From Lentzea sp. NBRC 102530 (GTDB lineage Bacteria > Actinomycetota > Actinomycetes > Mycobacteriales > Pseudonocardiaceae): 64,000 bases of DNA. The translations under genes and the position numbers were made by a program. This document shows, piece after piece, positions 21,324 to 26,175 of this stretch. The stretch lies in contig NZ_BSTF01000017.1 of NCBI RefSeq assembly GCF_030269365.1, positions 62,001 through 126,000 of the forward strand. The letters run 5' to 3'. Positions within the stretch are counted from its first letter, which is position 1; each line of letters begins with the position of its first letter. Under the pieces are notes generated by a model. The model was given only the letters and a program-made list of their open reading frames with translations. It did not search any database and was not told the DNA's origin.

Positions 21324-21367
21324 AGATCGTTTGGGCAGTTCGTTGACAGAAAGTGGACAAACGATCT
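21324..21367. promoter_or_regulatory. inverted repeat around a TTGACA element upstream of the TIR-CHAT unit
   Basis: AGATCGTTTG (21324-21333) and CAAACGATCT (21358-21367) are perfect reverse complements separated by 24 bp, and the gap contains TTGACA at 21343-21348, a consensus -35. Another GATCGTT follows at 21380-21386. This looks like an operator controlling a promoter for the small ORF and the large CHAT-TIR gene. Confidence 0.5.
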
Positions 21368-21412
21368 GTGGGCCGTCTGGATCGTTAATCTGCGACGCAC
21401 GGAGGATCGTGC

Positions 21413-21559
21413 ATGCGCCAACGAACGCGTCTCACCGCGGCCGTAGCGGCCGCGGCCGTGTCCACCCGCCGGTCCTCCCGATCGGACGGAGACATGGGCG
21501 ACATAGGACCCGGTAATGCGCCACGGCCCACAATGGACGCCAGGGGCTGCGGGGCCTGA
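21413..21559 (+). CDS. small ORF (48 residues) coupled to the CHAT-TIR gene
   Basis: ATG at 21413 preceded by GGAGG at seven bases, a much better ribosome site than that of the next gene. The product starts MRQRTRLTAAVAAAAVS, which has a basic then hydrophobic N-terminus like a short signal or membrane anchor, and ends MDARGCGA. Its TGA is directly followed by the ATG of the 1002-residue gene, so translation is probably coupled. It could be a real micro-protein of the system or only a translation leader. Confidence 0.45.
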   Translation: MRQRTRLTAAVAAAAVSTRRSSRSDGDMGDIGPGNAPRPTMDARGCGA

Positions 21560-24500
21560 ATGCACTTCGAACCCGGCACCCCGCTCGCGGACGCGGTCAA
21601 GGCCGCCAGGTCCGCGGCGCTGCGCGGCAACGTGCTCGGCGTCGACCTCGCCTACCGCCGGGCCGCCCGGATCAGCCCGCTGGTGGCCCACGACCACTGC
21701 GCCACCCTGCTGAACCTCGGCGCGGTCACCAAGGCCGCGCAACGCTGCGACGAGTACCTCGACCGCACCAAGGACACCACCCTGCGCATCCTGCGGGCCC
21801 AGATCCGCAGTGCCGCAACGGATCACACCGGTGCCGAGCAGGACGTCCGCGAACTGCGCAAGCTCAAGCTCACCGAACTCGAACAGGCGCGGCTCGCCCG
21901 CGTCGCCGCGCTCGCCGCCGCCGACCGCTACGACTACCCCACCGCGGAGAGCGAGTTCGACGCCGCCGAACGCCACTTCCGCCGCGCCGGCCGCCCGGAA
22001 CACCTCGAGCACGTCAGCCGGGACCGGGTCCTGCTCGACGTCCGCAGGGGCAGCCGCGTCTCGAAGATCACCACGACCCCGCCGAGCAGTCCCGCCGAGT
22101 TCCTGCAACGGGCCACCGCGTTGCGCCGCGAGGTCCGCTACGACGAGGCGCTGGCGTTGATGACGAGGTGCGCCACCAGCTACCAGATCGAACCCGCGCT
22201 GCGGTTCGCGGTCCTGTTCGAGCTGACCGTGCTGCTCGTGATGACCAGGCAGGCGGGTGCGGCCCGGCGCCTGTTCCCGCTGCTCGTCGCCGCGGCGGGC
22301 CCGGACGCCATCTCCCGGCTCCCCGACGCCACGCAGACGTTGCGCCCGGAGCGCAGGCTCACCCACGTGCGCCGCCTGATCGCCGACGACGAACTGCTGA
22401 AGGCGGAAGGCATGCTGGGCGAGGGGAACTCCCCGCTGTGGCACCTCACCGCCGCCGAACTCGCCTACGCACAGGGAGAACTCGAACAGGCCGCGAAGCA
22501 CTTCGAGGTCGCCAGCAGGTCGGGCCACGCCGAACTCACCGCGCTCGCCCTGCGCAAGCTCGGCGACACCTTCGCCGACGCGGGCCACGAGGCCCTCGCG
22601 ACCCGGCACTGGGCCGAGTCGCACCGGGTCGAGGAGAGCGTCGCCGACCACCGCGACAGCTCCAGCGTCAAGCTCAGGATGCTGCGCACCGCCCCGGACG
22701 TGCGCGACGGCCGGGTGCGCGCGGCCGCCCGCCGCGTCCACCGCGAGGGCGCGAAGGCGTTGCCGGGACTGGTGGTCGCCGTCGAGGCCGCCCGCGGCAC
22801 GGCGCTGGCCGACCACCGCGACCTGCCGGGGTTCGCCGAACTGAAGGCCGCGCGGCGCTGGCTCTCCCGCGCCACCCGGCACCTCGCCGGGGACCAGGTC
22901 GTGTGGATGATGCACGCGACCCCGGACCGGCTGCACCACGTGCTGGTCAAGGGCCGCCGTATCACGCACCTCACGACCGACGTGCACGTCGGCGACCTCA
23001 CCGACACGATCCGCCGCATCAAGGCCTGGAAACCCCGCTACGACCCGGCGGTCCTCAGCGCGCTGCTCCAGGAGCTCAGCCACCAGATCGCGCTGGACGA
23101 GGTCGTGAAAGCCCTGCCTGCCGGCGCGACCAGGGTCGTCGTGGTGGCGGACGGCCTGCTGGCGGACGTCCCGCTGACGGGCCTGCCGGTCGCCGGCACG
23201 CACCTCGGCCGGGTCCTCGCGTTGTCCAGCCTGCCGAACCTGTCGGCGCTGCGCCCGTTGCACCGCCGCGCCCGCGGGCAGCGCGGCGACCAGGCCGAGA
23301 TCGTCGGGAAAGCCGAAGAACTGCAACGGGTCCTGGACGAACGACGCTGCCAGCGCGTGCGCATCAACGCCCACGGCATGCACGACCGGATGAACCCCGA
23401 GTTGTCGTGGCTCCAGTTCACCGACGAACAGGTGTCCGCGGAAGCGTTGGCGGAGCTGGACTTCAGCGCGTTCGGCACGGTCGTGCTCGGCGCCGCCGAC
23501 CTCGGTTTCGCCCACGCGACCATCACCGCCGGCACGTCGTCGGTCCTCGCCGCCCGCTGGCAACCGGCGGCCGACGCGCGGCGCAAGGTGCTCGACGCGT
23601 TCGACCACCACCTGGCCAAGTTCCCGAGAGACCTCGCACTGCAGCACGCGCTGAAGGAAGTCGCCGACCGGCACCCGGCCGACTGGGCCTGCTGGTCCCT
23701 GCACGGCGACGCGGGCGTGCAGACCTCAGCGGGCCCGCTGCGCAGAAGACTCAGGAAGGACGGAGACCCCGTGCCGCTCGAAACCCGCCCCAAGGTGTTC
23801 CTGTCGTTCGCCGGGAAGGACCGCGGCCACGCCGAGAAGCTCCGCGCCGAACTGGAGGCCCGCAACGTCAACGCGTACCTGGACGAGAACGAGGCCGAGG
23901 CCGGCGACACCGCGACCGCCGCGATCGACGAGGCGCTGGCCACGTCGGACTACTACGTGCTGCTGTGGTCGGAGAACACCCCGCACCGCGAGTGGGTCGC
24001 GGCGGACTGGACGGCGGCGTTCAACCTCGAGATGACCCGCCGCCGCGCCTTCCTGTTCATCGTGCGGCTGGACGAGGAACCGCTGCCCCCGCTGCTCGCG
24101 CCGCGCAAGCACATCGACCTGGTGGACGCGGCCGACCGCCTGGTCGCGACCTGGCGGGCCGATCGCAAGTCCGAGCTCCCCGTGTTCCCGCAACCGGTCC
24201 CGCCCACGCCGGACGGCCCGACGGTCGCGATCTCGGTGCGCAGCCACGACCTCGGCACCACGCACGTCGTCATGACCCCGTTGCACCTCACCGGCTCCGC
24301 GCTCTACCGGTCGGTGTTCGAGGCGCTGCAGCTGCCGACCGAGCAGATCACGTTCGACGGCACGATCGGCATGCGCTTCACCTACGAGCTGTACCAGCAG
24401 AACGAACCGATCGCGGACGACGAGTCCACTGTGGAGCTCGCCTCCGACGTGGTGGACATCGCCGTCCGCGTCGAGTCGTTCAAGCAGGACCAGGAGACCG

Positions 24501-24568
24501 ACGAGGGGCTGGACGTCGACCAGCAACGGATGCTGCTCGTCGCCGCCTTCCGCCACCTGCTCCCCTAG
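21560..24568 (+). CDS. TPR-CHAT-TIR protein with ubiquitin-like C-terminal domain
   Basis: 1002 residues. Residues ~1-400 are helical TPR-like repeats (GELEQAAKHFEVASRSGHAELTALA...). Residues ~420-725 read as a CHAT caspase-like domain (KALPAGATRVVVVADGLLADVPLTGLPV; NAHGMHD with His605). The expected Cys block (ACETG) is AADLG, with Ala646, so protease activity is doubtful. Residues ~744-868 are a TIR domain (RPKVFLSFAGKDRGHAEKL, YYVLLWSENTPHREWVAADW). The usual WxxxE catalytic Glu of NAD-cleaving TIRs is Asp816. Residues ~887-975 (VRSHDLG...LYRSVFEALQLP...YELYQQNEPIADDESTVELAS) look like a beta-grasp, ubiquitin-like domain. The layout recalls bacterial NLR-like immune proteins. No RBS of its own; coupled to the small ORF. 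Confidence 0.8.
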   Translation: MHFEPGTPLADAVKAARSAALRGNVLGVDLAYRRAARISPLVAHDHCATLLNLGAVTKAAQRCDEYLDRTKDTTLRILRAQIRSAATDHTGAEQDVRELRKLKLTELEQARLARVAALAAADRYDYPTAESEFDAAERHFRRAGRPEHLEHVSRDRVLLDVRRGSRVSKITTTPPSSPAEFLQRATALRREVRYDEALALMTRCATSYQIEPALRFAVLFELTVLLVMTRQAGAARRLFPLLVAAAGPDAISRLPDATQTLRPERRLTHVRRLIADDELLKAEGMLGEGNSPLWHLTAAELAYAQGELEQAAKHFEVASRSGHAELTALALRKLGDTFADAGHEALATRHWAESHRVEESVADHRDSSSVKLRMLRTAPDVRDGRVRAAARRVHREGAKALPGLVVAVEAARGTALADHRDLPGFAELKAARRWLSRATRHLAGDQVVWMMHATPDRLHHVLVKGRRITHLTTDVHVGDLTDTIRRIKAWKPRYDPAVLSALLQELSHQIALDEVVKALPAGATRVVVVADGLLADVPLTGLPVAGTHLGRVLALSSLPNLSALRPLHRRARGQRGDQAEIVGKAEELQRVLDERRCQRVRINAHGMHDRMNPELSWLQFTDEQVSAEALAELDFSAFGTVVLGAADLGFAHATITAGTSSVLAARWQPAADARRKVLDAFDHHLAKFPRDLALQHALKEVADRHPADWACWSLHGDAGVQTSAGPLRRRLRKDGDPVPLETRPKVFLSFAGKDRGHAEKLRAELEARNVNAYLDENEAEAGDTATAAIDEALATSDYYVLLWSENTPHREWVAADWTAAFNLEMTRRRAFLFIVRLDEEPLPPLLAPRKHIDLVDAADRLVATWRADRKSELPVFPQPVPPTPDGPTVAISVRSHDLGTTHVVMTPLHLTGSALYRSVFEALQLPTEQITFDGTIGMRFTYELYQQNEPIADDESTVELASDVVDIAVRVESFKQDQETDEGLDVDQQRMLLVAAFRHLLP

Positions 24569-24698: not shown

Positions 24699-25169
24699 AT
24701 GACAGTGGACCAGGGCTTCGCCGAGTTCTTCCGCGAGTGCAGGCCCGTGGTCACGCGGACGCTCACGGCGTTGAGCGGCGACACGCGCGTGGTCGACGAC
24801 ATCGCGCAGGACGCGTTCGTGATCGCTCAGCACCGATGGGCGGACATCCACGCGTACGACAAGCCCGAGGCGTGGGTGCTCAAGGTCGCGATACGACTCA
24901 TGCGTCGCTACCAGCAGAAGCACTCGCACGAGGCGTTAGTGGCTTCGGTGCCTGAAGTCGTGCAGCCGTCGTTCGAAACGGAGGCGCTGCACGCCGCGTT
25001 GCGCGAGCTCTCGCCCCGGCACCGCGAGACCGTGGCGTTGCACCACCTGCTCGGCTACTCGGTCAGCGAGATCGCCGCCGTCCTCACCGTCGGCGAGTCC
25101 ACCGTGCGCACGCACCTCACCCGCGGCCGGGCCGAGCTGCGGCGCATCCTCGGAGGCAGTGATGAGTGA
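24699..25169 (+). CDS. ECF-type RNA polymerase sigma factor
   Basis: 156 residues. Region 2 (FAEFFRECRPVVTRTLTALSGDTRVVDDIAQDAFVIAQHRWADI) and region 4 (LRELSPRHRETVALHHLLGYSVSEIAAVLTVGESTVRTHLTRGRAELRRIL) are both present. Region 2 is degenerate at the promoter-melting part compared with classical ECFs. The next gene starts inside this one and would occupy an anti-sigma position, but encodes a soluble TPR protein. 130 bp after the CHAT-TIR gene; it may belong to the same system or be independent. Confidence 0.85.
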   Translation: MTVDQGFAEFFRECRPVVTRTLTALSGDTRVVDDIAQDAFVIAQHRWADIHAYDKPEAWVLKVAIRLMRRYQQKHSHEALVASVPEVVQPSFETEALHAALRELSPRHRETVALHHLLGYSVSEIAAVLTVGESTVRTHLTRGRAELRRILGGSDE

Positions 25170-26175
25170 GCTGCTGGACGACTTCGAGCTCGACGAGGCC
25201 GTCGAACACCAGTACCACCTGGGCGCCCAGGCCGAACGGGCCGGACGCCTGCGGGACGCGGCCGTGCACTTCCGGGTGGCCGCCGACCAACGCCTCGGCG
25301 ACGCCGCGGTGCGGTTGGCCCGCGTCCTGTTCGCCCTCGGCGAGGAAACCGAGGCCCTGTCGTGGTGCCGGGCCGCCGTCGCCGACGGCTTCCCCGAGGC
25401 AGCGGACCTGGCCGAGGAGAACGCGGCCGCACGGCAGCGCTTCCTGGAGCACGCGGCCCGGATCATGGTCGGCGCGCCGACGTTCGACTGGGTCCCGTCC
25501 GGCGTGCCGTCCGTTCAGACACCGGCCGCCACGATCGCCGCACGCACCAGGGCGTTGCGCGCCCTGGACGAACGCTACGGCGGAATCGCCTGCCACAGCG
25601 CGGTTCTCGAACACCTCGCCGAGGTGGAACCGATGATCGTCGCAGGCGACCCTCCCACCTGGACCGCCGTCGCCGAGGTCTGCGAACTGGCGGGCTGGAC
25701 GGCGTTCGACAGCGGCCTGCCCGGCACCGCCCTGCCGCACTTCGCCCACGCCCTGACCCTCGCCCGCCAGGCCGAGGACGAGGCGCTGATCGCGTCCGTC
25801 CTCACCCGAGCGGGCCGGATGTTCCTGCACCACAACGCACCCGACGACGCCTACCGGGCGTTCCAGCTGGGCCTCGTCGCCGCGCACAACGCCTGGGCGG
25901 ACCGCCGCACGCTGGACGACCCACCCACCGCCATCACGGCCCTGACGGCGAAACTGGGCACGTACGGCGAAGGCCGCGCCCGAACGCTGACCCTGACCGC
26001 CCTGGCCCGCAACCACCTCGCGCTGGGCAACCTCGCGCGAGCCACCGAGTTCGCCGCCCAGGCAGTCGACGCGGGCAGGAATCTGCGATCGGCCCGTGCC
26101 GACGACCACCTGGCCTGGCTGGCAGCGGAAGCCCGCGCATCAGGTGCAACGGCACTGGCGGAACAGCTTTCCTGA
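25162..26175 (+). CDS. TPR-repeat protein coupled to the ECF sigma factor
   Basis: 337 residues, all-helical, no membrane segment. It opens with MSELLDDFELDEAVEHQYHLGAQAERAGRLRDAAVHFRVAAD, Sel1/TPR-like units, and continues with TPR pairs (LPGTALPHFAHALTLARQAEDEALIASVLTRAG; GNLARATEFAAQAVDAG). The ATG at 25162 overlaps the sigma gene by 8 bp and has CGGAGG upstream, so both are made together. It may bind and hold the sigma factor in place of a classical anti-sigma, or be a partner of the TPR half of the CHAT-TIR protein. Function unknown. Confidence 0.7.
   Translation: MSELLDDFELDEAVEHQYHLGAQAERAGRLRDAAVHFRVAADQRLGDAAVRLARVLFALGEETEALSWCRAAVADGFPEAADLAEENAAARQRFLEHAARIMVGAPTFDWVPSGVPSVQTPAATIAARTRALRALDERYGGIACHSAVLEHLAEVEPMIVAGDPPTWTAVAEVCELAGWTAFDSGLPGTALPHFAHALTLARQAEDEALIASVLTRAGRMFLHHNAPDDAYRAFQLGLVAAHNAWADRRTLDDPPTAITALTAKLGTYGEGRARTLTLTALARNHLALGNLARATEFAAQAVDAGRNLRSARADDHLAWLAAEARASGATALAEQLS

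Follow-up and report, generated by a model that had tools for sequence, protein, structure and literature searches.

The window analyzed here is a stretch of 64,000 nucleotides from the 9.5-Mb genome of Lentzea sp. NBRC 102530 (labelled G000; contig NZ_BSTF01000017.1, positions 62,001 to 126,000), in which an open reading frame (ORF) at 21560..24568 on the + strand gives a stop-free translation of 1002 residues. From this translation, Pfam matches and a predicted structure (mean pLDDT 83.4, pTM 0.57), we describe the product as a TPR-CHAT-TIR-UBL protein, UBL standing for its ubiquitin-like C-terminal part. The model shows a helical solenoid over residues 8-411, then the CHAT region, a TIR fold, a C-terminal β-β-α-β-β-β unit and a last helix. 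Pfam places CHAT (PF12770) with its best stretch at residues 584-716 (E 2.8e-8, 34 bits; cut-off 24) and TIR_2 at 746-857 (E 1.2e-20, 74.6 bits; cut-off 28), both above their cut-offs. No TPR model was returned by the Pfam scan of this protein at a limit of E 1; a family profile compared with consensus TPR chains matched at E 8.2e-6 over the whole chain, with all single stretches below threshold. The protein was divided into a TPR-like helical solenoid (residues 1-400; 22,759 being its last position, 21560..22759, +; model and selection analysis below), a CHAT region (residues 401-733; 22760..23758, +; Pfam, model and fold search) and a TIR domain (residues 742-880; 23783..24199, +; Pfam, alignment and model). 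In the C-terminal part, strands are modelled at 888-895 and 900-907, a helix at 912-923, strands at 928-931, 936-946 and 964-975, and a helix at 986-1000 (24515..24559, +), which is also conserved in the alignment. By its strand order in the whole-protein model, the unit at residues 888-975 (24221..24484, +) appears beta-grasp-like; for the C-terminal part, Pfam gave no match and the PDB sequence search nothing better than E 0.83. A sequence-only reading had proposed this set of domains, and the TPR-like solenoid, CHAT and TIR are borne out by Pfam or the model, while its beta-grasp C-terminus is consistent with the modelled strand order and finds no counterpart in the Pfam and PDB sequence searches.

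Both enzymatic domains carry altered residues at key positions. When the protein is aligned with 15 relatives from outside Lentzea, Ala646 (GCC, 23495..23497, +) occupies the cysteine column of GACESGM and is followed by a 12-residue gap, while His605 (CAC, 23372..23374, +) is kept in the histidine column of HGxxD. In a weak match (E 0.0029), a profile of 12 of the non-Lentzea relatives brings both of these columns into register with Csx29, whose H615 and C658 are catalytic according to PMC10028731. In the TIR domain, Asp816 (GAC, 24005..24007, +) stands in the glutamate column of WxxxE, corresponding to the Glu shared by the TIR-UBL profile and AbTir in their alignment (E 6.3e-6); this Glu (E208) is required by most bacterial TIR NADases, according to PMC11374754. 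The TIR residues Ser749, Asp775 and Trp812 are retained. Inspection by eye found no Cys in the CHAT loop of the window protein, and Glu811, just before Trp812, is not a shifted catalytic copy, because Lentzea with the catalytic Glu also have it. Misplaced catalytic residues were thus rejected, the GACESGM and WxxxE columns being clear in the alignments. Codons and alignment columns therefore confirm the three residues named by the sequence-only reading, and with neither a Cys nor a Glu found in a shifted position the two alterations stand. The same reading had raised the prospect of unusual chemistry, which the relatives do not support: these have Cys and Glu, and the changes are lineage-specific losses. 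Judged from these residues, the CHAT region is a CHAT-fold protein and not a working CHAT peptidase.

To place these changes, we surveyed the gene within the genus and beyond, calling genes outside the window with a purpose-written codon-usage script. Full-length copies are present in 19 of 24 Lentzea genomes, the window's own included, the other 18 being 69-81% identical to it. None of the 19 contains an inner stop, by which an annotation or frame artefact was rejected; a single TGA listed for several genomes falls in matches whose start or end overshoots the gene by a few bases, as judged collectively and not individually. The incomplete cases are one genome without CHAT (G006), two with TIR-UBL only (G017 and G011; open frames of 256 and 251 codons) and two without the gene (G015 and G019): in G015 the neighbour genes are present and the fusion gene is gone, and in G019 a close copy of one upstream neighbour is likewise missing. 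Within a Pseudonocardiaceae sample of 297 genomes, a TPR-CHAT gene occurs in 15 non-Lentzea genomes. At all 15 of these loci TPR-CHAT and TIR are not one called gene (in G164, TIR-UBL lies in a different frame from TPR-CHAT), and 8 of the 15 genomes have a separate TIR-UBL gene; in Lentzea, the two are fused. A TIR-UBL search of a phylum sample of 396 genomes (E 1e-25) matched the window's genome only, and a UBL search of 287 genomes gave 29 places in 28 genomes, all of them already TIR-UBL places. The TIR alignment lacks one non-Lentzea TIR-UBL (L064), whose frame was missed by the gene caller, and contains L066 with a late start.

Directly upstream of TPR-CHAT, in 15/15 non-Lentzea loci and in four Lentzea, lies a gene for a protein of ~1000 residues, here called c10. 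It was found in 19 of the 297 Pseudonocardiaceae genomes, namely the same 15 non-Lentzea genomes that have TPR-CHAT and 4 of the 24 Lentzea, and a search of an order sample of 298 genomes gave 2 matches, both inside Pseudonocardiaceae. No family could be assigned to c10 from Pfam, NCBIfam or PADLOC; a PDB sequence search gave nothing better than E 0.58, and a PDB fold search with its model (mean pLDDT 76.5) gave nothing below E 0.001 (best, E 0.28). A lipobox-like signal was recognized by eye at the N-terminus of 14/15 non-Lentzea c10 proteins (L059 being the exception), and an N-terminal membrane segment in the four Lentzea ones. These N-termini suggest that c10 is probably a large membrane-anchored protein located outside the cell, which disfavors the idea that CHAT simply cleaves c10 in the cytoplasm. 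Beside 9 of the 15 non-Lentzea loci are vWA and tubulin-like genes, and at the other six none of the vWA, tubulin-like or GTPase genes is present in the stretch read. The gene run of G113 reads vWA, tubulin, two unassigned genes, double-GTPase, one further gene, then c10, TPR-CHAT and TIR-UBL; DO-GTPase2 scores above cut-off for a G113 protein, which has a homologue in G164. The unassigned neighbours of the relatives' loci, among which GAP1-N2 and FNIII-repeat proteins might be sought, have no Pfam match. In L067-L073, the conserved genes c17, c18, c24, c25 and c26 flank the c10, TPR-CHAT, vWA and tubulin genes, and the examples scanned gave no Pfam match except a weak double-GTPase in the longer c18.

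In the window, c10 was lost by an internal deletion that left its start, its stop and a leader. The c10 start is retained upstream of the fusion gene in c10-less Lentzea (window version, ATGCGCCAACGAACGC), and the c10 end, GGCTGCGG..CTGA or a variant, in most of them; in flava, a retained stretch gives ILICPQDDNAKGCGD when translated by eye in another frame. In the window, start and end are joined in frame into a c10 remnant of 48 codons plus stop (21413..21559, +), reading MRQRT...ARGCGA and abutting the next ATG. No c10 match was found in G000, and relocation of c10 elsewhere in this genome was rejected. The leader frame overlaps or abuts the fusion start codon in 13 of the 15 full-length c10-less species and is 12-71 codons long. 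The chance of such a leader from a random deletion is about one third, multiplied by 0.68-0.89 for an open frame; zeros obtained for two lengths indivisible by three are trivial, and this range was the one used. The fusion gene may also have its ribosome site within the c10 stop region; this alone could preserve the last codons. Given that the c10-less species form about four to six groups on two trees, several nodes of which are weak (43-60), the deletions are shared within clades and likely represent about four to six events, not 15. Further upstream, the block GACAAACGAT...GTTA (21356..21387, +), a candidate promoter or operator, is matched as a pattern in 21/22 Lentzea loci, and the locus missed, L045, has one base different. 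Both ends of this block are retained even at the two TIR-UBL-only loci, which are among the 21.

The state of the active sites follows the presence of c10 in part. His and Cys of CHAT are present in 15/15 non-Lentzea TPR-CHAT proteins, and all four c10-bearing Lentzea have the CHAT His, Cys and loop together with the TIR Ser, Asp, Trp and Glu. Among the 18 c10-less Lentzea that have all or part of the gene, the CHAT site is kept in five and both sites in four; for both sites intact (4/4 versus 4/18), a hand calculation that treats the species as independent, although they are related, gives a probability of 70/7315, or ~0.01. The CHAT His, Cys and loop are kept in 5 of the 15 full-length c10-less species (waywayandensis, albida, flava, cavernae and jiangxiensis) and were lost in the other 10 by differing routes: the Cys to Ala change and 12-residue gap of the window, a gap combined with His to Gln (five species) or with His to Arg (xinjiangensis), a gap only (fradiae), and His to Gln with removal of the Cys motif in alba and kentuckyensis. 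On the TIR side, Asp occupies the glutamate column in the window and in kentuckyensis, the latter having also lost the Trp; the column holds Gly in jiangxiensis, and Ser and His in the two TIR-UBL-only species, which have Asn at the Asp column. Asp and Trp are lost with Glu retained in both albidocapillata, californiensis and NEAU-D7, and Trp is altered in pudingi, xinjiangensis and the CHAT-less atacamensis; the Phe of xinjiangensis at this position is also found in the c10-bearing outgroup L063. Of 55 outgroup-conserved CHAT columns, the c10-bearing Lentzea keep 48-49, flava 48 and the window 35, conserved columns being those common to at least 14/15 outgroup rows (TPR, CHAT) or at least 7/8 (TIR, UBL).

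These columns bear on whether the window protein is still an enzyme, with Asp816 supporting NAD chemistry or CHAT using a different residue. The change from Glu to Asp preserves the acid, the other three TIR site residues are in place, and the TIR domain evolves at a low dN/dS (see below); yet a survey of homologues for Ala646 and Asp816 found Asp in just 2 of 31 aligned TIR rows, the second of which, kentuckyensis, lacks the Trp, other c10-less species carry Gly, Ser or His in this column, and the CHAT loop of the window protein is deleted and offers no Cys. We regard continued catalysis as highly improbable.

We then compared selection across the domains by the ratio of nonsynonymous to synonymous substitution rates (dN/dS; pairwise Nei-Gojobori with codon bootstrap, the pairs sharing species). 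Between the window and waywayandensis, dN/dS is 0.21 (0.16-0.29) for TPR, 0.52 (0.33-0.83) for the catalytic half of CHAT, 0.17 (0.09-0.30) for TIR and 0.27 (0.12-0.53) for UBL plus tail; TPR and TIR are under purifying selection in this pair, and CHAT is more relaxed. In the catalytic half of CHAT, three c10-bearing pairs give 0.14, 0.14 and ~0.21, compared with 0.26-0.67 in eight c10-less pairs, a range from which the flava/atacamensis value (0.68, 21 codons) is excluded. The TPR ranges overlap (c10-bearing, 0.16-0.27; c10-less, 0.11-0.44). The same data address the possibility that the fusion gene has been decaying since c10 was lost and is a functionless relic, of which the window copy would be an early stage. 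Such decay would account for the relaxed CHAT half, for the erosion of the TIR site too in many c10-less species and for the 5 of 24 Lentzea without part or all of the gene, and because of these five it remains a serious rival, indeed the main one. It fits poorly with 19 full-length copies free of stops, with the TPR and TIR values of the window's pair, with a leader frame retained in 13 of 15 species and with an upstream block retained at 21 of 22 loci, and we consider it unlikely.

We favor, as the somewhat better than even explanation, that the window protein derives from an envelope-coupled protease/NADase effector that was orphaned and is kept as a non-enzymatic binding protein, a scaffold or adaptor. 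The ancestor would have been a three-part module (c10, TPR-CHAT protease, TIR-UBL protein), in which a signal through c10, in some species with the vWA, tubulin-like and GTPase proteins, would activate or guide the two enzymes and so license CHAT to act as a protease and TIR as an NADase. Within Lentzea, a gene fusion joined CHAT to TIR; afterwards c10 was deleted on more than one occasion, and what remains of it is a short leader, which probably passes ribosomes to the fusion gene by translational coupling. Without c10, both enzymes would have become useless, which may be the cause of the eroded active sites seen across the genus. In the window species, both key residues are gone, while the TPR solenoid and TIR are constrained and the upstream block is kept; at present, TPR may bind one partner, and TIR-UBL with the C-terminal helix another. 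The suggestion of the sequence-only reading that the protein works by assembly or binding is supported by this pattern.

Several observations weigh against this explanation. Asp816 may retain some activity, and the gene is dispensable, since five Lentzea lack all or part of it: G015, where the locus is otherwise kept, and G019 are without the gene, one species is without CHAT and two are without TPR-CHAT. Loss of c10 does not force catalytic loss, since 5 of 18 c10-less species retain the CHAT site, and flava, which has no c10, gives a dN/dS of 0.17 against terrae and is still constrained. CHAT evolves no faster than TPR in the c10-less pairs alba/kentuckyensis and fradiae/xinjiangensis, and slightly faster in the c10-bearing pair aerocolonigenes NBRC/indica. 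Constraint also appears looser in the TIR-only pair, with values of 0.43 (0.21-0.82) and 0.42 (0.25-0.71), and in UBL between the window and jiangxiensis, with 0.45 (0.25-0.92). Two of the 15 leaders miss the ATG, that of flava stopping 41 nt short and that of xinjiangensis running past it out of frame. Moreover, pairs share species and the species are kin, and the counts are therefore not independent.

One of the closest known systems is Csx29 of Craspase (type III-E CRISPR), in which helical repeats also precede a CHAT domain and the His and Cys columns agree. Most of the best matches of the window model in a Foldseek search of the PDB are Craspase/Csx29 TPR-CHAT chains (E 4.0e-11 to 2.4e-8). 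Unlike Csx29, the window protein has Ala for Cys in CHAT and carries an added TIR and UBL; identity is 10-13%, and the superposition is poor (TM by query 0.23-0.32, root mean square deviation 14-24 Å), only parts of the chains superposing. The NCBIfam Csx29 model scores two relatives at 16.5 and 17.4 bits, far under its 300-bit cut-off, and no Cas protein is present among the six window proteins scanned around the gene. Listed among the Craspase chains are also the transmembrane anti-sigma factor DdvA (8rw5, E 3.7e-10; 8rot, E 2.4e-9) and separases. Bacterial TIR NADases such as AbTir share with the window protein the TIR profile and the site Ser, Asp and Trp, but not its Glu to Asp change or the attached beta-grasp-like unit and helix. 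A retroelement target of Thiohalocapsa, as described in PMC10907252, combines CHAT and TIR in one protein; by that description it is set apart as the target of a diversity-generating retroelement, with variable regions.

The genomic neighbourhood of the relatives recalls the actinobacterial GAP1-N2 GTPase-centric tubulin/vWA conflict systems (Kaur et al. 2020, PMC7159879): 9 of the 15 form one run with vWA and Tubulin_2-type genes, a run that in two cases includes a double-GTPase gene. However, the main text of PMC7159879 does not contain the word "chat" (the domain may be listed as caspase there), Tubulin_2 is missing from the window genome, and the loci of 6 of the 15 relatives are without these genes in the stretch read. 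The resemblance raises the possibility that the window protein is a working anti-phage or cell-death effector that kills by assembly alone, as descent from a conflict-like system with vWA, tubulin and GTPase genes might lead one to expect. Nevertheless, the gene has the same genomic place across the Lentzea loci read, searches of plasmid records (72,556; limit E 1e-15) and of phage records (50,697; limit E 1e-10) gave no match, findings by which a mobile defence gene was also rejected, and the protein has no defence-family match beyond TIR models. Neither c10 nor Tubulin_2 (PF13809) has a match in G000, and tblastn found no Tubulin_2 within the window. An effector of this kind is very unlikely. 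The label of defence or death-signalling protein given by the sequence-only reading thus suits the ancestor, with its TPR-CHAT plus TIR and frequent vWA and tubulin-like neighbours, and suits the window copy less well, for which the constant locus, the plasmid and phage searches and the missing partners argue against a defence role.

Published work already covers TPR-CHAT proteases, the union of CHAT and TIR in a single protein, and vWA/tubulin/GTPase systems. The order TPR-CHAT-TIR-UBL, which the sequence-only reading had found unfamiliar, was not found in the open-licence literature, the CHAT plus TIR protein of PMC10907252 being of another kind; nor were the c10 family or the erosion series. 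With the orphaned-effector explanation, one could tentatively propose that in Lentzea an immune effector with two enzymes has repeatedly been turned by nature into an adaptor without catalysis, once its surface partner had become a translational leader. Such a change would be a bacterial counterpart of pseudo-caspases and of TIR adaptors in signalling, and would come with an undescribed c10/TPR-CHAT/TIR-UBL module in which c10 makes the enzymes worth keeping. The genus itself offers a natural experiment, with the protein found with its partner and both sites, without the partner but with the sites, and without either. This makes testable a TPR-CHAT protease switch outside CRISPR and the conversion of immune enzymes to binding proteins, and points to the c10 family, probably membrane-anchored and with no match in the PDB fold search made, which accompanies the intact protease in all 15 non-Lentzea loci.

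Other features were noted in and around these loci. L. terrae (G020, contig C44) has a second, free-standing TIR-UBL of 310 aa with the Glu kept (L077:4449-9132), whose ORF overlaps a sigma-factor-like gene and lies behind two genes with dynamin-like-GTPase motifs and a small IniB-like gene, as recognized by eye from motifs. Downstream of the fusion gene, the window contains an extracytoplasmic function (ECF) sigma gene overlapping a gene for an NsdA-family TPR regulator (24699-26175), a pair present in most Lentzea independently of the CHAT-TIR gene. A functional link to this pair was rejected: the pair persists in G015 despite the loss of the fusion gene, and the loci of fradiae, G017 and G011 lack it although a whole or partial fusion gene is present there. 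Finally, in part of the genus, a repetitive secreted-like gene of up to ~2090 residues lies just downstream of CHAT-TIR on the opposite strand, as at L046:11140-16317, with equivalents in L045, L047, L048, L050, L051 and L055.

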